NCBI RefSeq assembly: GCF_002563715.1
Contig: NZ_PDJJ01000001.1
Coordinates: 744,001-808,000, forward strand
Source of the DNA: Isoptericola jiangsuensis
Lineage (GTDB): Bacteria; Actinomycetota; Actinomycetes; Actinomycetales; Cellulomonadaceae
Direction: 5' to 3'
DNA: 64,000 bases
The translations under genes and the position numbers were made by a program. A model generated the notes under the pieces. The model was not told where the DNA came from and made no database searches. It saw only the letters and a list, made by a program, of their open reading frames with translations. Positions 2,911-12,746 of this stretch are shown here, one piece after another (position 1 is the first letter of the stretch; each line of letters begins with the position of its first letter).

Positions 2911-3110
2911 GGCTCGGGCGGGGGTGTGCCGCGCACGGTCGCGCTCACGGTCGCTGCGCGACCTGCGCTTCGGGTCTGACGACCGCGCGCGGCACACCCC
3001 CGCCCGGGCCTTCGTCGTCGGGTCCCGTCGCGCTCACGGTCGCTGCGCGACCTGTGCTTCCCGTCTGACGACCGCGCGCGGCACACCCCCGCCCGAGCCT
3101 TCGTCGTCCG
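2911..3110. repeat. REP-like hairpin with a tandemly duplicated arm
   Basis: A 24-nt arm at 2911-2934 is complementary to a segment near 2985-3010 (one mismatch) and perfectly to a second copy near 3073-3098. The right half is present twice as direct repeats with an 89-bp period (about 2939-3020 and 3028-3110). Each copy contains GCGCTCACGGTCGCTGCGCG and a TCTGACGACC segment. The same element type recurs once at 44572-44666. It sits just 3' of the altronate dehydratase gene and 60 bp left of the transposon end. No gene is seen between 2872 and 3207. Confidence 0.75.
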
Positions 3111-3161: not shown

Positions 3162-3169
3162 CCTCGGGC
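3162..3169. repeat. Left target-site duplication CCTCGGGC
   Basis: The 8 bp directly left of the transposon end are repeated exactly at 12739-12746, directly right of the other end. Confidence 0.75.
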
Positions 3170-3208
3170 TGTGGAGTTGAGCAGTCGATGGCGGTCCTCT
3201 GTGATCGC
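3170..3208 (+). repeat. Left terminal inverted repeat
   Basis: Starts TGTGGAGTTGAGCAGTCG. It matches the internal end at 8678-8716 over most of about 39 positions, including the first 11 bases. It matches the right end at 12700-12738 at about 60 percent. A subterminal motif ATCGCTACGTGGCG (3203-3216) resembles ATC(A/G)CTNGTTGGCG motifs at the other two ends, probably transposase-binding repeats. The stop codon of the last resolvase gene lies at its inner edge. Confidence 0.75.
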
Positions 3209-3834
3209 TACGTGGCGTGCCGTCCGCCGCGCGGCGCCTCGGGCGGAGGCGCAACTGCCGGCAGCACCGTGCCCGTGTCCTCGACGACTGGCAGGGCGTG
3301 TCGGTTGATGGTGGATCGGGACACTCCCATGTGTTCAGCGACGCTCGTCGTCGTGGCGCCGGGCTCAGTGAGAAGGCGTCGGGCTTGCTCGATCTGTTCG
3401 GGTGTCAGGACTCGCGGCCGGCCGAGCTGGACGCCTCGGGCTCGGGCGTCATTCAGTCCGCTGATGGTGTCCTCAGCGAGGAGGGTTCGCTCGAGGTCGT
3501 CAGCGATTCCTACGGCGTGGAAGAAGATCCGGCCGTCGGGTGTGGTGGTGTCGATGGCGTCGGTCAGGCTGATCAGGTCCGCGCCGCGCTCCCGGATCGT
3601 GGTGGCGATCAGCGCGAGGTGGTGCAGGCTGCGGGCGAGGCGGTCCAGGCGGAGCACGATCAGGGCGTCGCCGTGGCGTAGCTGTAGCAGCAGGTCGTCC
3701 AGGAGCGGCTGCCGGGACTGCGTGCCAAGTTCACGTTCTTCCCAGATTCGTTCAGCTCCGGCGCCGTGGAGTGCCTGGAGTTGCGCGGTCAGGTCGGGGC
3801 CCTGGTGGCTGGGGCGGGCGTATCCGAGCCGCAT
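3208..3834 (-). CDS. Serine recombinase (resolvase), transposon-encoded
   Basis: Small serine resolvase of 208 residues that would cut and rejoin DNA through a 5'-phosphoserine intermediate to resolve cointegrates. The catalytic serine is Ser9 in Y-A-R-P-S-H. The conserved arginine helix reads R-L-D-R-L-A-R-S, and the C-terminus carries a Hin-type helix-turn-helix (T-S-V-A-E-H-M-G-V-S-R-S-T-I-N-R-H). The start at 3834 leaves 2 bp after the ATPase stop codon, so the genes are co-transcribed. The P-S-H after Y-A-R departs from the usual V-S-T. It is the second resolvase in the element; why two are present is not evident. Confidence 0.85.
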   Translation of the reverse strand: MRLGYARPSHQGPDLTAQLQALHGAGAERIWEERELGTQSRQPLLDDLLLQLRHGDALIVLRLDRLARSLHHLALIATTIRERGADLISLTDAIDTTTPDGRIFFHAVGIADDLERTLLAEDTISGLNDARARGVQLGRPRVLTPEQIEQARRLLTEPGATTTSVAEHMGVSRSTINRHALPVVEDTGTVLPAVAPPPEAPRGGRHAT

Positions 3835-3836
3835 CG

Positions 3837-4643
3837 TCAGTTTCCGATGACCAGGATGCTCGCGGCGGCTTCGACGACGTCGTCGGTGATGGATTGCAGC
3901 TGGTTGATCTTCAGCACGCGGGAGATCTGGGGGAAGAGTCGTTCCAGGAGGCGGAAGTTGCCGCGGGTGATGCGTTCGATCGTCGCGATGGCCTGGGCGT
4001 CGGTGAAGTCTTCGGGGTCGAGGCTCAGGCCCAGTTGTTTCCAGTACCGTCCGAGGACGAACAGCAGCTCCTCGCGACCGAGGGTCCGGTATTGGTGGGA
4101 GAACCCGAGTCGGGAGTACAGCTGCGGGTAGTGTGCGAACCTTTTGTCGATGCCGGGCATCCCGATGAAGAGGATCGGGACCTGTTGGCGGTCGTGGAGG
4201 TCGCGGAGGATCTCCAGGATCGTGGGGGTCAAGCGCTCGGCCTCGTCGATGATCAGCAGCTCGGTCCACCGGCGCAGGTCGCTCGTGCCCCCTTTGCCGG
4301 TCCCGCTGCCGGCGGCGCGGCGGTGTTCGTCGACGCAGACGCCGAGCCTGGTGCGCAGCAGGTCGATGTCCCGCATGATCTCGCGGTGCCGGGGCATGAC
4401 CTCGGGGGTGTAGAAGACGGTGCGCGTGCGGTTCGCGGCGGCGTAGTACTTAAGGTCGTCGTCGGTGCGGCGCCCCCACTCGGTGATGAAGGGGCCGAGG
4501 GTGTTCCAGTGGGCGTAGCGGCGTGCTGACTGGGTCTTGCCGACTCCGGCGTCGCCATGGCAGATCCCGATCGTGGCTTCCTTGCGCACGGCGGTGGCGA
4601 ACTCGCAGAAGCGGCGGTGTTCCTTGGTGGCGATGAAGCCCAT
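3837..4643 (-). CDS. tniB: TniB/IstB-like AAA ATPase, transposition protein
   Basis: ATP-dependent target-selection and transposase-activating protein, analogous to MuB, TniB and Tn552 p271. The 268 residues contain Walker A G-D-A-G-V-G-K-T (30-37) and Walker B L-L-I-I-D-E-A-E (129-136). A sensor-like G-M-P-G follows, then an all-helical C-terminus. It starts 12 bp after the transposase stop codon on the same strand and is followed 2 bp later by a resolvase, giving the compact tniA-tniB-resolvase order of Tn552/Tn402 relatives. Family knowledge: such ATPases polymerise on target DNA and give target immunity. Confidence 0.88.
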   Translation of the reverse strand: MGFIATKEHRRFCEFATAVRKEATIGICHGDAGVGKTQSARRYAHWNTLGPFITEWGRRTDDDLKYYAAANRTRTVFYTPEVMPRHREIMRDIDLLRTRLGVCVDEHRRAAGSGTGKGGTSDLRRWTELLIIDEAERLTPTILEILRDLHDRQQVPILFIGMPGIDKRFAHYPQLYSRLGFSHQYRTLGREELLFVLGRYWKQLGLSLDPEDFTDAQAIATIERITRGNFRLLERLFPQISRVLKINQLQSITDDVVEAAASILVIGN

Positions 4644-4655
4644 CAGTCTGCCCCG

Positions 4656-6059
4656 TCATTCGGTTTCGTAGGTGCGCAGCTTGACCCGGCGCGACGGCAC
4701 TTGGCGGGTGCTGGGCTCCTCGCGCATGGTCGCGACGGGGATCCGGTCGTTGATCTGGCGACGCAGGTCGCGGCGGCGAGCTCGCCGGGCGGTCTCGATC
4801 TCGCGCAGGCTGAGGCGCTGGTTGGGGTGCTGCTCGTCGATGGCGACGCACACGAACTCGTCGCGGTCGTAGACCCGGATCTCCGAGACGTCGCGCGGGT
4901 CGTACCGGATCGTGACGGGCCGCCCGACGTACGGGGCCAGAGTTGTGGACATGTATCGCAGGCCCTGGAAGTGGATGCCGTCGCGTTGCACGGTGCGGTG
5001 CTTGGGCACGGTCAGCAGCAGACCGTCGAGCTCGGTGAGGGACTCGGGCATGCGCGGTAGCCATCCCTCGCCTACCCACGCCTGTTTCGGGCTGGCTCCG
5101 ATCTCGGGGTGGGGCCGTTCGTTGTACCGGCCGACGAACGCTCCGATCTCCTGGTCCAGGGCCGGCAGGCCCAGGGTGGGCGTCGGCGTGCGTGCGCCCG
5201 GCGCGAGGTGGCCGGGCAGGGTGGCCAGCAGTTCGGTGTTGACCGTGCCGAAGAAGCGTTCGACCTTCCCGCGCCCCTGCGGGCGGGCGATGTGAGAGAA
5301 GACAAGCCGCATCTTCAGCCCGAGGGCGGTGTACTCCAGGTGCCGGCTGGTGAAGTCCGACCCGTGATCGACGTGCAGGACGTCCGGGATCCCGCACATC
5401 GCCCAGGCGGGTTCGGACTTGCGCCAGATCGCCTGCCGCAGCACCAGCGCCGTGTTGATCGCCGACGGCGGCCCGGTGAAGACCATGTACCCGCACACCG
5501 CGCGGGAGTAGTCGTCGATCACGGTGGTCAGCCACGGGCGCTGAGGCTTCCCGTCGGCGCCGAGGATCAGGATGTCGAGCTCGGTGTGGTCAGCCTGCCA
5601 GGTTGCGTTCGGCCGGGCGGCGCGGAACCGGTAGACCAGCTCGTGCTTGTCCCGGTAGGACTCCGGCCCTTCCAGGGCGAGAGTCACCAGTGCCGGGTCC
5701 AGGGCCCCAACGATGTTCCGCACGGTCGCGTACGACGGCGCGGAAACTCCCTGCCGCTCGGCCTCGGCGATCGCCTGGCGGTGCAGTGTTGCGATCGCCG
5801 GACGCGGGCAGGTCAGGGCCAGACGTTCGACGAAGGACACGATCTCGGCCCGTGTGCGCCGCACACCCGCGTCTCGGCGCCGACGGGGCGCCAGCCCAGC
5901 GACTCCTTCCGCTTGGTAGGCGTGGTGCCAGCGCTGAAGCGTCCGTAGCCCCACCCCCGAGGAGTCGGCCAGCACGGTCAGCGGGATCCCGTCCTCGACG
6001 TGCAGGCGCAGCACCCGCCACCGATCGAGCGCGTCTACCTCATGCACCGTCATCACCAC
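4656..6059 (-). CDS. tniA: DDE transposase of the Mu/TniA/Tn552 type
   Basis: Catalyses DNA strand transfer of the surrounding element. The 467-residue protein has an N-terminal helix-turn-helix (about residues 25-55, T-L-Q-R-W-H) for end binding. The RNase H-like core has D157 (Q-A-D-H-T-E), D231 (H-V-D-H-G-S-D) and E267 (G-K-V-E-R-F-F), a D-x(35)-E spacing. A Mu-type beta-barrel C-terminus follows. Length is close to the 480 residues of Tn552 p480. ATG codons at 6059 and 6053 are both possible starts, 6-12 bp after the upstream resolvase stop. All catalytic residues are present and no frameshift was seen, so it is probably active. Confidence 0.9.
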   Translation of the reverse strand: MVMTVHEVDALDRWRVLRLHVEDGIPLTVLADSSGVGLRTLQRWHHAYQAEGVAGLAPRRRRDAGVRRTRAEIVSFVERLALTCPRPAIATLHRQAIAEAERQGVSAPSYATVRNIVGALDPALVTLALEGPESYRDKHELVYRFRAARPNATWQADHTELDILILGADGKPQRPWLTTVIDDYSRAVCGYMVFTGPPSAINTALVLRQAIWRKSEPAWAMCGIPDVLHVDHGSDFTSRHLEYTALGLKMRLVFSHIARPQGRGKVERFFGTVNTELLATLPGHLAPGARTPTPTLGLPALDQEIGAFVGRYNERPHPEIGASPKQAWVGEGWLPRMPESLTELDGLLLTVPKHRTVQRDGIHFQGLRYMSTTLAPYVGRPVTIRYDPRDVSEIRVYDRDEFVCVAIDEQHPNQRLSLREIETARRARRRDLRRQINDRIPVATMREEPSTRQVPSRRVKLRTYETE

Positions 6060-6065
6060 ACGCCC

Positions 6066-6704
6066 TCACACGGCGTCGGGGAGAGGCTCGGCAAGCGACT
6101 CGGTGGGCGCCTTGATGGACGTGTCGGTCTGAGTCGCTGCTTGATGGCGGTAGAGCGTCGCCCTCGACCACCCGACCAGCCTCGCAGCGTCGGCCGCGGT
6201 ACGGCCGGCCGCGCGGGCCTCGGCGACGATCCGCAGCTTCTCCGCCACTTCAACCCGGTCGAGGGGCGGGCGGCCGAACCGGGTGCCAGCGTTCCTGGCC
6301 GCAGCGATCCCGGCGTTGACCCGCTCGGTGATCAGCTCGCGCTCGTACTCCGCCAGCGACCCCAGCAACCCGAGCAGCAACCTGCCCGTGGAGGTGGTCG
6401 GGTCGATCCCGTCCTGCAGCGACTTCACCCCGATACCCCGGGCTGCGAGGTCGTCGACCGTGGCCAGCACGTCCAGCAGCGATCGCCCGAGCCGATCAAT
6501 CCGCCACACCACTACAGTGTCGCCGTCGTGTGCGTACTCCAGCAGCCGAGCCATGCCTGGCCGTGACGGGGCCGCCTTGGCCCCGGAGGTGACATCGCCG
6601 AAGACGTCCCGGGCCTCGACCCCGGCGCCGAGCAGCGCATCAATCTGCAGTCGCGGGCCCTGCTCGGCAGTCGAGACCCGCGTGTACCCCAAGAGACGAC
6701 CCAT
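6066..6704 (-). CDS. tnpR: Serine resolvase, first gene of the transposition operon
   Basis: Canonical Tn3/Tn552-class resolvase of 212 residues that would resolve cointegrates at the adjacent res site. Ser11 lies in Y-T-R-V-S-T-A-E-Q. Further marks are the arginine motif W-R-I-D-R-L-G-R-S, the E-helix E-R-E-L-I-T-E-R, and a G-R-P-linked C-terminal helix-turn-helix (A-A-D-A-A-R-L-V-G-W-S-R-A-T-L-Y-R). A tail of about 18 residues extends beyond the usual end. It starts the minus-strand operon and its upstream region holds repeated GTGAGAC/GTCTCAC motifs, which fits autorepression by res binding. Confidence 0.9.
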   Translation of the reverse strand: MGRLLGYTRVSTAEQGPRLQIDALLGAGVEARDVFGDVTSGAKAAPSRPGMARLLEYAHDGDTVVVWRIDRLGRSLLDVLATVDDLAARGIGVKSLQDGIDPTTSTGRLLLGLLGSLAEYERELITERVNAGIAAARNAGTRFGRPPLDRVEVAEKLRIVAEARAAGRTAADAARLVGWSRATLYRHQAATQTDTSIKAPTESLAEPLPDAV

Positions 6705-6713
6705 GACCGGATT

Positions 6714-6861
6714 GTCTCACCAACCGTCAGTCGCACCTCTGTGAGACGCCCCGAGGGTGAGACGACTTTCCGAGACGGCACCGACTGGCGCGGTTCTGCG
6801 GATCCCCAACGCCTCCGCCCACCGACCGCCACCGTCTCAGAAACCTACAGCTTTACGAGAC
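6714..6861. other. Putative res recombination site
   Basis: Directly upstream of the resolvase start lie GTCTCAC (6714-6720) and GTGAGAC (6741-6747), inverted and spanning 34 bp. Then come GTGAGAC (6757-6763) and GAGAC (6772-6776), and finally GTCTC (6834-6838) with GAGAC (6857-6861), inverted and spanning exactly 28 bp. Known Tn3-type res sites have a 28-bp crossover subsite farthest from tnpR and two accessory subsites closer to it; the layout fits. The operon promoter probably lies within it. Confidence 0.55.
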
Positions 6862-7242
6862 AGGTTCCCGGGCACCTATACGAGGCTGCCCGGCCACCAC
6901 GAGGTCGACGACACCGCGCGCATCTCCGCACAGTAGGTCACAGATTGATAACGACTTCAAGAGTGCGGAAAGATCCCCTGGCCTGCCGGCAATCAACAGT
7001 ATGCAGGGACGCAGCAACACACCACAGAAGGGACGCACAGCGGCACACGCCAAGGTGCCGGATCGGAAGCGCCGACTCTCCACACCTCGACACGACCCAA
7101 CGAGACGTGGAAAGCTAATCGGCGATTTTCGTGCGGGTAATTGCCGCACACGGATCATGGGAGAAAGGCCGACCCCGCTAGACACGGGCACAGATCGCTG
7201 CTTGAACATGGCTCACCGAGTTCAAACAACAAGGAGGTTGGC
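6862..7242. other. Gene-free stretch before the metalloprotease gene
   Basis: No open frame here has a ribosome site or protein-like composition. An inverted repeat GTGCGG (7131-7136) / CCGCAC (7144-7149) sits about 95 bp before the protease start and could be an operator or transcript hairpin. A promoter for the protease operon must lie here, but I cannot place it with confidence. Confidence 0.4.
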
Positions 7243-7797
7243 TTGCTCACCAAACTGAAGACCAGACTTGCCGCGCTTGCCGCATTTGCGATCGTTGCCG
7301 CTGGGGGCCTCGTGGTTGGGGCAAGCGCCCCGGCCGAAGCCACCTACTATTCCGGCGGCGTGGGTACAAATCAATTCTCCGTGCAGATCACTGGTGTGAA
7401 CAGCACATGGAACGGCTACCTCAAGAACGGCATCACAAAATGGAGCGCCACCTACAGCGAGACTGGGACGTCGATCGCCAACTCTTCGAACTCACCACGA
7501 AAAATGACCGCCTCAAACTACAACACGACCTGGCTGGGCCTGTACACACCATCGGGAACGCGCTCAAACCGCTCTTTCACGATCAAGGCAAATGCGTCTC
7601 GGATCAATGATATGACAGGGGGGACTTTTGCGCGGTGGGCGAAGTTCACCTCCACGCACGAGCTTGGACATGCACTCTCTCTTGCAGACAACCCCAACAC
7701 GACCAGGGCATCGGTCATGAAGTATCGCGCGGCAAGCTCGGATCCGGGCAGTACGCCGTACTCCTACGACCGCGACGAAGTCGTCCGTATCTACTGA
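7243..7797 (+). CDS. Secreted small zinc metalloprotease (snapalysin/matrixin-like)
   Basis: Predicted exported protease, 184 residues. A Sec signal peptide (lysines and arginine at 4-8, hydrophobic 10-27) ends at A-P-A-E-A, residue 33, leaving about 151 mature residues. The zinc motif H-E-L-G-H-A-L-S-L-A-D (139-149) gives the HExxHxxxxxD form seen in snapalysins, with Asp as third ligand. A Met-turn-like S-V-M follows at 157-159. The TTG start is chosen because AGGAGG (7232-7237) lies 5 nt upstream and gives a clean signal peptide; an upstream ATG at 7141 would add 34 unrelated residues. First gene of a two-gene operon with the next lipoprotein. Codon usage is less GC-biased than that of the host genes. 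Confidence 0.75.
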   Translation: MLTKLKTRLAALAAFAIVAAGGLVVGASAPAEATYYSGGVGTNQFSVQITGVNSTWNGYLKNGITKWSATYSETGTSIANSSNSPRKMTASNYNTTWLGLYTPSGTRSNRSFTIKANASRINDMTGGTFARWAKFTSTHELGHALSLADNPNTTRASVMKYRAASSDPGSTPYSYDRDEVVRIY

Positions 7798-7806
7798 GGA
7801 GTGGCA

Positions 7807-8415
7807 ATGAAGAAGCACAAATTGCACCCGAGCGCCCTTGGTGCAGCGGTATTGCTTGCCGCGTCGATGTCGGCATGTGCATCAGGGGCCGAAAGTGAAG
7901 ATGTGGTCTATCACCCCACCTACGCGGAGTATGCCAGCATCACCGAACTGGAGGAGTCCTCGGACCTCGTCATTGCGGGGACTCCAGTGTCGAGCGAGGT
8001 GCGGAAGATTGACGTGTCGGCCGAGCCGCCGGTCTCGAGCGATCCAGAACTTGACCCGAACTCCGGCGACGTCGAGGGAGATGAGCTTTCTAGCACGTTT
8101 GTCTATACGGTCTATGAGGTCGTAGTAGACGATGTCATCGCGGGGAAGCCTTCAGGCGACACGATCGAAGTCGGGTTTCTCGGCGGATCAATGGACGGAG
8201 TGATCTACAGGGAGCAGGGCGGCACCGATCCGCTCTCGCTCGAAGTGCCTATCGCGCTCTATCTCGTCGATTTCGACGGAGCCGCTCCCTACCAGCCTGT
8301 AAACAGCAGCCAAGCAGTCTACGTCGAGACGTCGCCGGGTAAATTCGAGTCCGTAGCGCTGGACAACTCGATTGAGAAGGATGTCGTCACATTCCTCGAA
8401 TCTGAGGTTGGATAG
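7807..8415 (+). CDS. Putative lipoprotein paired with the metalloprotease
   Basis: Unrecognised 202-residue protein. The N-terminus is a lipoprotein signal peptide (K-K-H-K, hydrophobic 11-19) with a lipobox ending M-S-A-C at Cys24, so it should be anchored on the outer face of the membrane. The mature part is acidic (runs such as E-L-E-E-S-S-D and D-V-E-G-D-E) with alternating beta-like segments. AGGAG at 7797-7801 favours the ATG at 7807 over a GTG at 7801. The gap of 9 bp after the protease stop implies co-expression; it could restrain the protease or present its substrate, but that is only inference. A hairpin terminator follows. Confidence 0.6.
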   Translation: MKKHKLHPSALGAAVLLAASMSACASGAESEDVVYHPTYAEYASITELEESSDLVIAGTPVSSEVRKIDVSAEPPVSSDPELDPNSGDVEGDELSSTFVYTVYEVVVDDVIAGKPSGDTIEVGFLGGSMDGVIYREQGGTDPLSLEVPIALYLVDFDGAAPYQPVNSSQAVYVETSPGKFESVALDNSIEKDVVTFLESEVG

Positions 8416-8423
8416 GTGACGCG

Positions 8424-8452
8424 ACCTCCCCGACTCCCGGCCACGGGGAGGT
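8424..8452 (+). terminator. Hairpin terminator of the protease/lipoprotein operon
   Basis: ACCTCCCCG (8424-8432) pairs perfectly with CGGGGAGGT (8444-8452), 8 bp after the lipoprotein stop codon. No T-run follows. Confidence 0.5.
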
Positions 8453-8456
8453 TCTG

Positions 8457-8571
8457 GACTCTTCACAGACGAAGGTGTAGCCGGGCTGTGTAAAGTCTCA
8501 GGACTTCGTTGACAGACACGACCTGAGATATGAAACTCCGAGCCCGGCTACACCCTCGTCTGTGAAGAGCC
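8457..8571. mobile_element. 115-bp MITE with ISL3-type ends
   Basis: The 29-nt arms at 8459-8487 and 8541-8569 are inverted copies with one mismatch. The right arm read outward begins GGCTCTTCACAGACG, and GGCTCTTC is the known start of many ISL3-family ends. A nested pair TCTCAGG (8496-8502)/CCTGAGA (8522-8528) lies in the loop. No coding capacity and no 8-bp target duplication (AGGTTCTG left, GCCAATGA right). Best read as an internally deleted ISL3 derivative inside the transposon. Confidence 0.65.
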
Positions 8572-8677
8572 GCCAATGATCTCGACCCCAGAGCCGGTTT
8601 AGCGATTGACCGCCAGTCAGCGGTTCCAGGCCTGCCGCCAACCAGCGATAGTGGAGGCGGCAAGCTCGCGCCGGTGT

Positions 8678-8716
8678 CCGATCACAAGAAGCCGCCACCG
8701 AGCGATCAACTCCACA
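8678..8716 (-). repeat. Internal copy of the transposon end
   Basis: Read on the minus strand it starts TGTGGAGTTGATCGCTCG, sharing its first 11 bases with the left end and about 30 of 40 positions overall. Further inward is ATCGCTGGTTGGCG (8637-8650, minus strand), matching subterminal motifs of the other ends. The flank CGTCT is not a duplicate of the left flank, so this is not the current outer end. It may be the end of an older, shorter 5.5-kb element. Confidence 0.7.
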
Positions 8717-8742
8717 CGTCTGCTCGAGGCCTCGAGCAGACG
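8717..8742. repeat. Perfect 26-bp palindrome abutting the internal transposon end
   Basis: CGTCTGCTCGAGG followed by its exact reverse complement, starting at the first base after the internal end. Possible insertion target, recombination site or terminator. Confidence 0.7.
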
Positions 8743-9166
8743 CGAGGCGCCGAGGAGGGAAGCCGAACCTCGAGGCAGGTGCGCGCTGCTCAGTCGCTAC
8801 CGGCTCAGTCGCTACCGGACTGAATGTAACGAGTCGATAACGATCGCCGTGGATGGCGTAGTGGAAGTGCGACTGCCGGCAACTACCCCTATATACGGGC
8901 GGCGTGCGGGCGTCTTAACCGTCCGTCTACCGCTGGTTGGCGCGGCGTCGCGCAACTTCGACTGAAATGGAGGGCAGAGGCGACAAGGAGATGAACACAA
9001 TTCAATACAGGGCAAACGCTGGTCCGACCGCATGGCAGGCGATCGGTGTGCCTTTGTGTGGCCCGAACACGGATTCGCAACGCGCCGGCCCGGATTGCAT
9101 CCCTCCTGACTCTTGGTAACTTCGGCGGTGCACGATGGAAGATCCGATCCAACGAAGGGTACTGGC
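8743..9166. other. Gene-free stretch before the peptide gene, with a 15-bp tandem duplication
   Basis: GCTCAGTCGCTACCG occurs twice in tandem at 8788-8802 and 8803-8817. No convincing gene is present. The promoter of the peptide/ABC operon should lie in this region but was not identified with certainty. Confidence 0.45.
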
Positions 9167-9496
9167 ATGGACATCGCGCGATCCAGCAGGAAGGTCATCG
9201 GCCTGACCTTCGCGGCCGCCTTGGCCGCCGGAGGGCTCGTCGTCGCGTCAGACGACGCCTGGGCGGTCTCGAACTGCTCGGCGTACAAGCAGGACCACCC
9301 GTCGGATTCGAGCGCCCGCGTGGTGGCCTACAGCACCAACCTCGACGCCAACAAGAAGGCGCGCGGCGAGCTCGTGCGCTCAGCGTTCGTCCCGAACGCG
9401 TACACGTCGTGGTTCACCGACGACTCTGGCAAGAGGTACTACTCGCCCTACAGGAGCTTCGCGGTCGACACCGCGTGCGAGATCGCGAACGTCTGA
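9167..9496 (+). CDS. Secreted bacteriocin-like peptide (lactococcin 972-like layout)
   Basis: A 109-residue precursor. R-S-S-R-K followed by a hydrophobic core (11-26) and A-W-A at 31-33 give a Sec signal peptide and a mature chain of about 76 residues. Cys37 and Cys104 sit near both ends and could form a disulfide. The mature order S-A-Y, D-H-P-S-D-S-S-A-R-V-V, K-A-R-G and R-Y-Y near the end recalls lactococcin 972-type bacteriocins. The downstream ATPase plus about 790-residue permease also mirrors that family's loci. The similarity is pattern-level and could be wrong. ATG 9167 has GAAGGG 7 nt upstream and gives the signal peptide directly. Cargo of the transposon. Confidence 0.5.
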   Translation: MDIARSSRKVIGLTFAAALAAGGLVVASDDAWAVSNCSAYKQDHPSDSSARVVAYSTNLDANKKARGELVRSAFVPNAYTSWFTDDSGKRYYSPYRSFAVDTACEIANV

Positions 9497-9508
9497 CGCG
9501 GTCGGACG

Positions 9509-10240
9509 TTGAGCAACCTGAGCACAGCACCGGGCGGGGACCGTGTCGCTTCTGGCAGGTCCCCGCTCGTTGTCTGCACGAAGATGACGGTCAGTGTGGG
9601 GTCCGGAGGGACGCGCACGACTCCGTTGCGTGGACTCGACCTAGAAGTTGGCACGGGCGAGGTTGTCGCAGTTCGTGGTCCAAGCGGCAGCGGTAAGTCG
9701 ACCTTGCTGGGAGTGCTGTCCGGAGATCTTGAGCCAGACTCCGGGCAGGTGACAGTTGGGGGCGCGTCGCCGCCAGAGGCCCGACGTGATCCCGGTGTTG
9801 GATTTGTCTATCAGGATTTCCGGCTTGTGGAGTTCCTTACTGCGCTCGAAAATGTCGCGATGGCACTAGAAATATTGGGGCATCGCTCAACCGAAGCGGT
9901 AGAACGCTCACGCGCCGAGCTTTCCCTGCTGGGCGTCGAAGATATTGCGGACAGGCTCCCTGGCGAAATGTCCGGTGGCCAGCAGCAGAGGGTCGCCATC
10001 GCTCGAACGGTAGCGTGCGAACCGGCCCTAATCTTGGCAGATGAGCCGACGGCGGCCTTAGACCGAACTACTGCGGGGCATGTCGTAGACACCTTCCTCG
10101 AGGCTGCCCGACGGCATGGATCAGCAGTTGTGCTGGCGACACACGATCCGTTGGTCTCTGCGGTTGCAGAGACCGTCTTGGATCTCCAAGATGGTCACCT
10201 TGTCAACGACCTCGTTGCAATGCATGGAAGCGGCCGATGA
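9509..10240 (+). CDS. ABC transporter ATP-binding protein (MacB/LolD type)
   Basis: Nucleotide-binding subunit, 243 residues, that should energise the FtsX-type permease encoded next. Walker A is G-P-S-G-S-G-K-S-T (57-65), the Q-loop is Y-Q-D-F (101-104), and the signature is M-S-G-G-Q (154-158). Walker B is L-I-L-A-D-E-P (about 174-180), followed by A-T-H-D. Y-Q-D-F after a basic D-P-G-V-G-F stretch is typical of exporters and peptide-resistance transporters rather than importers. The TTG start at 9509 lacks a strong ribosome site and the true start may be slightly downstream. The stop overlaps the permease start by 4 bp (ATGA). Confidence 0.82.
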   Translation: MSNLSTAPGGDRVASGRSPLVVCTKMTVSVGSGGTRTTPLRGLDLEVGTGEVVAVRGPSGSGKSTLLGVLSGDLEPDSGQVTVGGASPPEARRDPGVGFVYQDFRLVEFLTALENVAMALEILGHRSTEAVERSRAELSLLGVEDIADRLPGEMSGGQQQRVAIARTVACEPALILADEPTAALDRTTAGHVVDTFLEAARRHGSAVVLATHDPLVSAVAETVLDLQDGHLVNDLVAMHGSGR

Positions 10241-12615
10241 CGGAGCAGGGCGCTCAACGTAAGATCGGGCGCCGGTTGATGACGCGCCAGTTCAGCGTCT
10301 TCGCGCTACTCGCCGCGAGCATTGCGCTATGCGTCGGTGTCGTAGTCCTGCTCGATGGGATGCGCGCATCGGGCGCACGGGCGGAGGAGCAGAGCACATC
10401 TGCGATGAACGCCGGGTACGACTACACGCTTCAGGTCAGCCACCCCGACGGCATCGAAGCGCTGACCAAGGCTCCGATCCCGCGGCTGACGACCACCATC
10501 GGCGAGATCGCCACTCAGGATTCGCTGGGCAGCGTCACAATCGTGGCCAGCACCGAAGCAGAAGTCGTTGAGACCTACGGCTTGGACGTTCGTGGTAGCG
10601 AAGCCCGCGGCACGGCTGCGGTGGCCGTGTCCGAGGCCGTGGCGCGCGACTATGAGGCCTCGATAGGGGACACGGTCGAGGTCAGCACGGACGGCTGGTC
10701 GACGACGGCCGAAGTGGGTCGCGTTTTCGTGATCCCGTCCGAACCTGACGCTCGATTCGTGATCGTCGCGGCTCCCGTCGAGGCTGGCCCGACAGGCTCG
10801 ACTCGATGGTTGCTGAACGATGTAGATTTCTCCGATCCGGAACTCAATGAGTCGCTCGATCAGTTGGGCTCCGAGTACTTCGAAGTTCGATCCTCGACCG
10901 GTCTCGCCCAGGAGAAGGTCGATGTCCTAGAATCCGGACGCTTCATGGCGTTGACGTTTGTCGGTCCGGCTGGCTTGCTGGTCGCGACCGCAGCATGGGT
11001 CGCTGTGCTGATTCTGGTGCGTCCTCGGTTGACCCGGCACATTACCGCGTTCACCGCGCTCGGCCTGACGGCGAGTCAGGCGATGAGCGTCGTGCGGCGG
11101 GCCTGCGCCACCACAGCTGTGCTAGGCGTCCTCGCCGGCGCCACTATCGGTCAACTCGGCCTCCTACTTCTCTATCGAACGCTAGGCCGAGTGGTCGACC
11201 AGGCGTGGCAGGTCGGCGCGGTCAGTCTGCTGCGTACCTCGCTGTTCCTTGTCGCAACGGTGTTGGCGATTCTTGTTGCGACTGAACTCACGATCCGCAA
11301 TCACACACGGTTCGCAGCTCAGCGGAGAGTCCCGAATCGACGCCAGCGTCTGAGATCTGCAGCAGTTGCGGCATCAGTGGGTCTCGTGAGCTGGGTGGCA
11401 GGCGTCACCGATGTGATCAACCCGTACTACGCGGCAGTCATCGTCGGTCTCGCCACCGTGGTGGCTGCCTCCGGTGCGTCCCTGCTCATCAGCGACGCAG
11501 TCGCTAGGCGTGGTCCGAGCAACCTCCTCGTGGGAGCCAAGCGGGCATCGGCATCGGGATGGATCATCGGTCTTGTCGTCGGAGTGATCACCCTGTCAGG
11601 GACACTCCTGTCGGGCATGGTCAACAATGCGCTCCACACCGAACAAAAGGCCTACATTCCCGACCAGCCGCCGATGTCCATCGTCGCCTATGAGGTCGGC
11701 GACGAGACATCCCGCCTCGTCACCTCCGCGTGGCGCAGCGCCACACCTCAGCAACCGAGTGAGCCGTGGGGTCTACCGATCGCCCGGGCAGGAGCAAACG
11801 ACCGACTCTTCGCCTCTAGCCCAGAGTTCGTCGAATGCGCCAAAGGCCAAGGTGGAATCAACAATGACGCGCGCTGCCCAGTGCCCGAGCGCATCACCGT
11901 AAACCCCACCGATGTCGCTCTCGGCGACGCGCCTCGAGGGGGCGTGCTGGCCGATCCAGATCTCATCGTAGACGGCAATGTCGGACTCCTGCGAACCACC
12001 AGTGACGGGCAGGTAGTCGGCAGCTGGATCGTCCCGGCCCAAGGAATGCAATCCTTGGGGAACTTTCTACCCGGTGTCGTCGTCGACCCGGAATCAAAGA
12101 TCGCGGCAGATCTCGACATCGCGCCCGTCGGCAATAAGCAGATTGTTCTGGACGGCTCTGCGCTCGCCGAGGACGAGTTGACCCGCATCGGCGCCTCCAT
12201 TGCAGGTTCGACACCAGCCACGCGCGTGGTGGTAGAGACAGGGTATGACGATGGCGGACTGACAGAGTTCATGGCGTTCGTCTCCCTCGGGGCAGCACTC
12301 CTGGTCGGCGTCATGGTCGTCGTTCTAGGTGCCGGGTTGATCCGATCGAGCCAACCGTTCTGCACGTTGGTCGACTCGTTAGGAGCCACGCGGTCCACTC
12401 GCTGGCGCGTCGCGTCCGCGATGCTCGTCGAACCGTTCGTCGTGCTCCTTGCTGTTCCGGTTGGGATCGCCGTGGCGATGCCACTGTGGGACTCCGCACC
12501 TGTCGACTGGGCTAGCCCTGTGACCCCGCTTCCGATCATCGTCGGTGCTGCAGGCTTGTTCTGGGTACTGGTGCACCTGGCCCTTGGCCCGAGTAGAAAC
12601 GCTCAAAGGCGTTGA
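10237..12615 (+). CDS. FtsX-like ABC permease (bacteriocin export/immunity type)
   Basis: Integral membrane protein of 792 residues. A first transmembrane helix lies at about residues 18-36, followed by a large extracytoplasmic domain. Clusters of helices lie around 230-360 and 395-470, then a second external domain with two cysteines near 545-560 and a terminal helix cluster (about 670-790). This duplicated FtsX layout is that of MacB-like and bacteriocin-associated permeases, which export or extract peptides from the membrane rather than import nutrients. Translationally coupled to the ATPase (ATGA). Likely role: release of, or self-protection against, the peptide encoded upstream. The last 120 bp to the transposon end hold only hairpins and the end repeat. 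Confidence 0.75.
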   Translation: MTEQGAQRKIGRRLMTRQFSVFALLAASIALCVGVVVLLDGMRASGARAEEQSTSAMNAGYDYTLQVSHPDGIEALTKAPIPRLTTTIGEIATQDSLGSVTIVASTEAEVVETYGLDVRGSEARGTAAVAVSEAVARDYEASIGDTVEVSTDGWSTTAEVGRVFVIPSEPDARFVIVAAPVEAGPTGSTRWLLNDVDFSDPELNESLDQLGSEYFEVRSSTGLAQEKVDVLESGRFMALTFVGPAGLLVATAAWVAVLILVRPRLTRHITAFTALGLTASQAMSVVRRACATTAVLGVLAGATIGQLGLLLLYRTLGRVVDQAWQVGAVSLLRTSLFLVATVLAILVATELTIRNHTRFAAQRRVPNRRQRLRSAAVAASVGLVSWVAGVTDVINPYYAAVIVGLATVVAASGASLLISDAVARRGPSNLLVGAKRASASGWIIGLVVGVITLSGTLLSGMVNNALHTEQKAYIPDQPPMSIVAYEVGDETSRLVTSAWRSATPQQPSEPWGLPIARAGANDRLFASSPEFVECAKGQGGINNDARCPVPERITVNPTDVALGDAPRGGVLADPDLIVDGNVGLLRTTSDGQVVGSWIVPAQGMQSLGNFLPGVVVDPESKIAADLDIAPVGNKQIVLDGSALAEDELTRIGASIAGSTPATRVVVETGYDDGGLTEFMAFVSLGAALLVGVMVVVLGAGLIRSSQPFCTLVDSLGATRSTRWRVASAMLVEPFVVLLAVPVGIAVAMPLWDSAPVDWASPVTPLPIIVGAAGLFWVLVHLALGPSRNAQRR

Positions 12616-12672
12616 GGCGTCAGGCTGAACCCCCGTGCCGAACAAGGGGGCGGTCGTCCGAGCACTCGAGCG

Positions 12673-12697
12673 GTTGGCGGGGCTACTAGCCGCCAAC
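12673..12697. terminator. Hairpin near the right transposon end
   Basis: GTTGGCG (12673-12679) pairs with CGCCAAC (12691-12697). The right arm is part of a subterminal end motif (12690-12706), so it may serve both transposase binding and termination of the permease transcript. Confidence 0.4.
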
Positions 12698-12699
12698 TA

Positions 12700-12738
12700 G
12701 TGATCGAAAGAGCGCGCCGTCCTACGATCAAAGTCACA
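12700..12738 (-). repeat. Right terminal inverted repeat
   Basis: Read on the minus strand it starts TGTGACTTTGATCG. Ungapped comparison gives 24 of 38 matches to the internal end and about 60 percent to the left end. The motif ATCACTAGTTGGCG (12692-12705, minus strand) lies at the same inward distance, about 33 bp, as its left-end counterpart. It is flanked by the 8-bp duplication. Confidence 0.7.
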
Positions 12739-12746
12739 CCTCGGGC
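12739..12746. repeat. Right target-site duplication CCTCGGGC
   Basis: Identical to 3162-3169; begins at the first base beyond the CACA end. Confidence 0.75.

Follow-up and report, generated by a model that had tools for sequence, protein, structure and literature searches.

Where does a transposon end when its own kind of end occurs three times along the same DNA? This question is raised by a locus in Isoptericola jiangsuensis that we studied within a 64,000-nucleotide stretch of DNA, called the window here. A preliminary description had seen in it a plain Tn552-like transposon with two ends and an 8-bp target duplication. The core consists of four minus-strand genes, which encode a second serine recombinase (3208..3835), the AAA ATPase TnpB (3837..4643), the DDE transposase TnpA with a Mu-type C-terminal domain (4656..6059) and, upstream of tnpA, a serine resolvase (6066..6704). 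This gene order bore out the resolvase-DDE transposase-ATPase-resolvase core that had been described, as did the result for TniQ, which had no match among the nine proteins scanned. TnpA carries rve and Mu-transpos_C domains and is closer to proteins of the Tn552 type than to those of the TniQ type, being 42% identical to a protein of S. equorum, 53% to one of Dinoroseobacter and 26% to a TniQ-type protein of P. putida; this assignment rests on identity, and the tree has long branches. Relatives of TnpA with solved structures are found among TnsB proteins, and the ATPase gave a weak match to TnsC. One copy of the transposase was reported in the 4.04-Mb single-contig genome. In this superfamily, TnpA joins both transposon ends to a target that is cut with a stagger; choosing this target is the task of the ATPase, and a cointegrate is taken apart by the resolvase.

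The ends were read against related elements. As a guide to the boundaries we used two near-identical Rhodococcus copies in different surroundings (L083 and L084, plasmid relatives with 75% transposase identity), in which the common DNA reaches as far as TGTGGACTTGATCGC on one side and GCGCTCAAACCCACA on the other. A 60-bp matrix, built from 35 ends of relatives and none from the window, located three ends: an ATPase-side end at 3170..3229 on the plus strand (score, 47.2), an inner end at 8657..8716 on the minus strand (44.9) and a more diverged outer end at 12679..12738, also on the minus strand (26.0). The next best place in the window scored −2.6, and the top score in 60 simulated 64-kb sequences was 5.5. 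The end at 12738 is the weakest of the three, and in a smaller test with four outside ends only it scored 14.3, within the simulated range (best of 20 simulations, 15.1). The end at 3170 agrees with that at 12738 at 26 of 45 positions and with that at 8716 at 30 of 45. TGTG begins at 3170, CACA finishes at 12738, and the end at 8716 has the full TGTG tip together with subterminal repeats, so that the window ends fit the Tn552-type format of TG...CA with repeated subterminal sites. A common subterminal motif is present, as had been claimed, but the letters quoted for it were slightly wrong: it reads ATCGCTACGTGGCG at the 3170 end and ATCACTAGTTGGCG at the 12738 end.

An exact 8-bp copy of CCTCGGGC abuts each outer tip, at 3162..3169 and at 12739..12746 (neither copy is assigned a strand). 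The two outer ends and their flanking duplication had been reported before and could be read directly. Since CCTCGGGC is frequent in the window (20 occurrences on the two strands together, where 11.6 were expected; a count of 20 was reached in 2 of 100 shuffles), the weight of the match comes mainly from the fact that both copies sit exactly at recognizable tips, the chance of finding the octamer at one named place being about 1e-4. The duplication pairs 3170 with 12738, and a search for one between 3170 and 8716 found none shared, which argues that a 9.6-kb unit moved and that the inner end was skipped. The earlier reading of a Tn552-like element of 9.6 kb between duplication-bearing ends therefore stands, but a third end, stronger than the outer one, had been missed. 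What the window contains is therefore a Tn552-type transposon of 5.5 kb (3170-8716) and, next to it, a segment of 4.0 kb that is closed by the diverged end at 12738. Because the duplication is exact and the frames are open, the insertion does appear to be recent, as proposed. Immediately beyond the inner end lies a perfect 26-bp palindrome (8717..8742, no strand); when up to two mismatches were allowed, it occurred only in the window among 297 genomes of the order.

We then looked for skipped ends in relatives. A scan of genome contigs retained the best 80 of 124 relatives; the 86 sources examined comprised 85 loci and the window. An end pair and enough flank were present in 57 of them, and the remaining 29, in which two ends plus 10 bases of flank on both sides were not available, fell outside the duplication test. 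A Janibacter locus (L157) holds a 4.24-kb element whose own ends are flanked by a 9-bp duplication. Two Cellulomonas loci (L156 and L159) contain this 4.24 kb at 99.6% identity, inner end included, plus an extra 3.0 to 3.2 kb that is closed by another end of the family, and their duplications (6 and 5 bp, respectively) lie at the outer end. L156 has a CadD-family gene in the core and merA with a MerR-family gene in the added part, and L159 matches L156 through the merA/MerR-family segment. In L117, a 6-bp duplication lies at the outer of two equal ends 138 bp apart. Two inverted copies in Agreia pratensis (contig positions 2411-19601, obtained by arithmetic and kept outside the count of 36 duplication sites given below) share GCCGAAGGG beyond their outer ends. 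In L109 the duplication lies at the weaker, inner end, so use of the outer end is not the rule. The window fits with the cases in which the outer end was used, and 3170-8716 would be the older transposon and 8717-12738 the added segment.

Each of the two parts has its own cargo. The first encodes a secreted protein of 184 amino acids with the motif HELGHALSLAD (7243..7797, plus strand), which by this motif is a putative zincin-like zinc protease, and a protein that by eye is lipoprotein-like (7807..8415, plus strand). The second, also on the plus strand, encodes a small secreted peptide of 109 amino acids, recognized by eye (9167..9496), an ABC transporter ATPase (9509..10240) and a 792-amino-acid putative ABC permease (10237..12615), so called from gene order and by eye, with no family match. 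Gene order suggests that the exporter may carry the peptide. The protease-like protein, the lipoprotein, the peptide and the permease belonged to no Pfam, NCBIfam, PHROGs or PADLOC family, giving only weak matches below curated cutoffs. The protease-like protein had no sequence match in the PDB and none in 395 genomes of the phylum, the peptide none in 393 genomes of the class, and the permease one weak match in 296 other genomes of the order; neither the protease-like protein nor the permease had a plasmid match. GC content is 0.67 to 0.71 in the core, about 0.58 in the first cargo, 0.63 to 0.64 in the second and mostly 0.70 to 0.78 in the host. Inside the core transposon, an inverted repeat at 8459-8569 (29-nt arms, 97% complementary, 53 nt between them) looks like a small nonautonomous insertion element with ISL3-like tips. 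Scanning the window for Rfam families and tRNAs gave no match.

The element sits between two convergent genes, one of the galactarate/altronate-dehydratase family and one of the MarR family. When 18 genomes of the genus were searched with each flank, two (G001 and G006) had these neighbors side by side without the island; their spacer does not align with that of the window, and a base-exact empty site was not found. A 23-base pattern of the joined flanks gave 15 matches, with 2 to 3 mismatches, in 61 genomes of the family (four of the genus, own genome included), against 11 for the backward pattern. The element was seen in one strain, and no second strain was found. The left flank contains an extragenic repeat (2912-3080): a query from this flank had at least 36 matches in the own genome and at least 30 in G003, and among the matches listed most fell in 2912-3080.

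We consider it very probable that a transposon spanning 3170-8716 moved as a 9.6-kb unit by way of the outer end at 12738. A Tn552-type transposon with TnpA, the TnpB ATPase and a resolvase, and without TniQ, would first have ended at 3170 and 8716 and adjoined DNA that was closed 4 kb further on by an end of the same family. The transposase would then have paired 3170 with 12738 and carried everything between them into the chromosome, where insertion between the two convergent genes would have produced the 8-bp duplication, leaving the end at 8716 inside as a scar. This order of events, the action of the element's own TnpA and TnpB and the resolution of a cointegrate by the resolvases are what we infer; from the anatomy, the open frames and the intact ends, TnpA should pair 3170 with 12738. 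The history draws on the three ends found with a window-free matrix, on the duplication, which pairs 3170 with 12738 rather than with 8716, on L156 and L159 being the L157 element plus a segment whose outer end bears the duplication, on L117 and the Agreia pratensis pair, and on the differences in GC between segments. Against it we counted L109, the 20 of 57 two-ended sources that have no duplication, the weak third end and the lack of a base-exact empty site. Among the relatives examined, none showed a donor arrangement in which the core, flanked by a duplication of its own, adjoins the added segment.

The same duplication would pair the outermost ends if the element were a plain two-ended 9.6-kb Tn552-like transposon and 8716 only an internal binding site for the transposase. 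That 8716 outscores 12738 (44.9 versus 26.0) and has the full tip and repeats, and that L157 uses such inner ends as true ends with a duplication, makes this very unlikely. Two other histories were weighed. In one, the element ending at 12738 arrived before the core, which then inserted and deleted the left part of its predecessor; nested res-hunting elements are indeed known among relatives of the kind, the available part of PMC7765201 describing Tn5053 in carrier transposons. Yet the left copy of CCTCGGGC, at 3162, immediately adjoins the core's own end, so the deletion would have had to stop exactly there, and we regard such a double insertion as very unlikely. In the other, the 5.5-kb transposon, which is a complete element, inserted alone, 8717-12746 is unrelated island DNA, and it is by coincidence that CCTCGGGC matches and that an end lies at 12738. 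The abundance of the octamer in the window speaks for this, but an exact 8-mer at two tips together with an end scoring 26.0 against a simulated maximum of 5.5, and the absence of a common duplication at 3170 and 8716, leave it highly improbable.

The preliminary description had also held that a duplication of 8 bp sets the element apart. Across the 57 sources, 68 end pairs yielded 36 distinct sites with a duplication, the window included, with lengths of 5 bp (1 site), 6 bp (5), 7 bp (8), 8 bp (5), 9 bp (15) and 10 bp (2). The clade thus ranges from 5 to 10 bp with a mode of 9, and for Tn552 itself the portion of PMC3276174 at hand gives 6 bp, plus 10 bp in two plasmid groups, so the claim is not supported; the 8 bp of the window lies inside the relatives' range yet is neither length printed there for Tn552. 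In addition to the 20 sources without a duplication, one more repeats another (L144 is the same as L143 and is outside the 36). As a control, flanks of different sources agreed over at least 6 bp in 5 of 4,534 mismatched pairs. Three copies that are 99.94% identical over 6,702 bp (L133, L150 and L166) have duplications of 9, 7 and 7 bp, and four that are 99.3 to 99.7% identical (L124, L125, L127 and L128) have 9, 9, 9 and 8 bp; length therefore varies between insertions of one element. Its difference by target type was not significant (mean of 7.5 bp at 14 recombinase-adjacent sites and 8.2 bp at 22 others; p = 0.13). Palindromic targets did not prove to be a general rule: of the 36 sites, 16 reached 8 of 11 paired positions and 2 reached 9, and 707 and 161 of 2,160 random places did so.

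Two further observations were made. The 6,702-bp element of Micropruina glycogenica recurs at 99.94% identity in both Micropruina sp. KQZ13P-5 and Isoptericola sp. QY 916, which points to its recent transfer between distant genera. Two contigs of a single Isoptericola genome (L079/L080; G009 C1 and C3) share, at 100% identity, a 19.4-kb block that holds one transposon of the clade; this is either a large duplication or an assembly artifact. By title or abstract opening, in a search that covered mostly journals other than subscription ones, we found no paper on a TniQ-less actinobacterial Tn552 clade; Tn7-like transposons include an uncharacterized clade dominated by Actinobacteria, according to the part of PMC8649781 that was available.

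Twenty of the 57 elements had an outside serine recombinase gene with its 5′ end facing the element within 400 bp, at 66 to 158 bp in 19 of the 20. The 3′ end of such a gene was in that position in none of the 57, and random positions in the same loci gave 46 of 11,000. For this count we used only the window's two resolvases as queries and all 57 elements; where the duplication left the end pair undecided, it was chosen by hand (in L097, the inner one). An earlier run gave 19 of 48 against 31 of 9,400 random positions, with 8 of the 57 sources left out by hand, one more dropped for short flanks and four of six recombinase queries taken from adjacent genes. The nearest end was the cargo-side one in 12 cases and the ATPase-side one in 9, one element having both. 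The DNA upstream of the 5′ end of a recombinase gene is where a res site is expected, and the excess over random positions suggests that the TniQ-less clade hunts res sites, which are predicted here from gene position. The window copy is not beside a recombinase gene. Of the 57 elements, it alone contains a second internal recombinase; this second resolvase may, at a guess, be a captured target recombinase.

Taken jointly, these results allow a reading of the TniQ-less Actinomycetota Tn552 clade that we find possible and put forward tentatively: an elastic stagger (5 to 10 bp, mode 9, differing between copies more than 99% identical), res finding without TniQ and with either end, and stepwise growth of cargo by end skipping. 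In several actinobacterial genera, elements of the clade are carriers of metal resistance, and the comparison gives a simple, checkable route of cargo addition, in which an outer end is used and the inner one is left behind like a scar. The same comparison points to a DDE transposase of variable stagger and to res-site targeting without TniQ. Two questions can now be tested, namely by what means a resolvase site is located by the ATPase and why the spacing of the cuts is not fixed; it is the variability of the stagger and the route of growth that merit further work.

The window element is a previously undescribed Tn552-type transposon with a skipped inner end, although the kind itself is known. 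It resembles Tn552 of Staphylococcus in the type of its TnpA (42 to 45% identical to staphylococcal plasmid proteins, which we take to be Tn552-type and whose records say only Mu transposase C-terminal domain), in its ATPase and serine resolvase and in having no TniQ. Insertion at res sites, a trait of Tn552, is suggested for the clade by the recombinase genes next to 20 of the 57 elements, although the window copy is not at one; the duplication of 6 or 10 bp that PMC3276174 gives for Tn552 differs from the window's 8 bp. Unlike Tn552, the element belongs to an actinobacterial clade whose end sequences and cargo are its own, and it has a second resolvase and the skipped inner end. With the Tn5053/Tn402 family (TniABQ-R) it has in common a DDE transposase, an ATPase and a resolvase, and its clade appears to share res-site hunting with that family. 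That family has TniQ, 5-bp duplications and a preferred orientation, as far as the available parts of PMC7765201 and PMC11406308 describe it, whereas the window's clade has no TniQ, duplications of 5 to 10 bp (5 bp at 1 of 36 sites and not at the window) and elements of which either end may face the recombinase; the window TnpA is only 26 to 27% identical. The architecture is also like that of the Janibacter and Cellulomonas cadmium and mercury elements (L157, L156 and L159), which are of the same family and, in L156 and L159, likewise consist of a core and an added segment, the duplication lying at the outer end; unlike the window element, they carry metal resistance cargo and no second resolvase.
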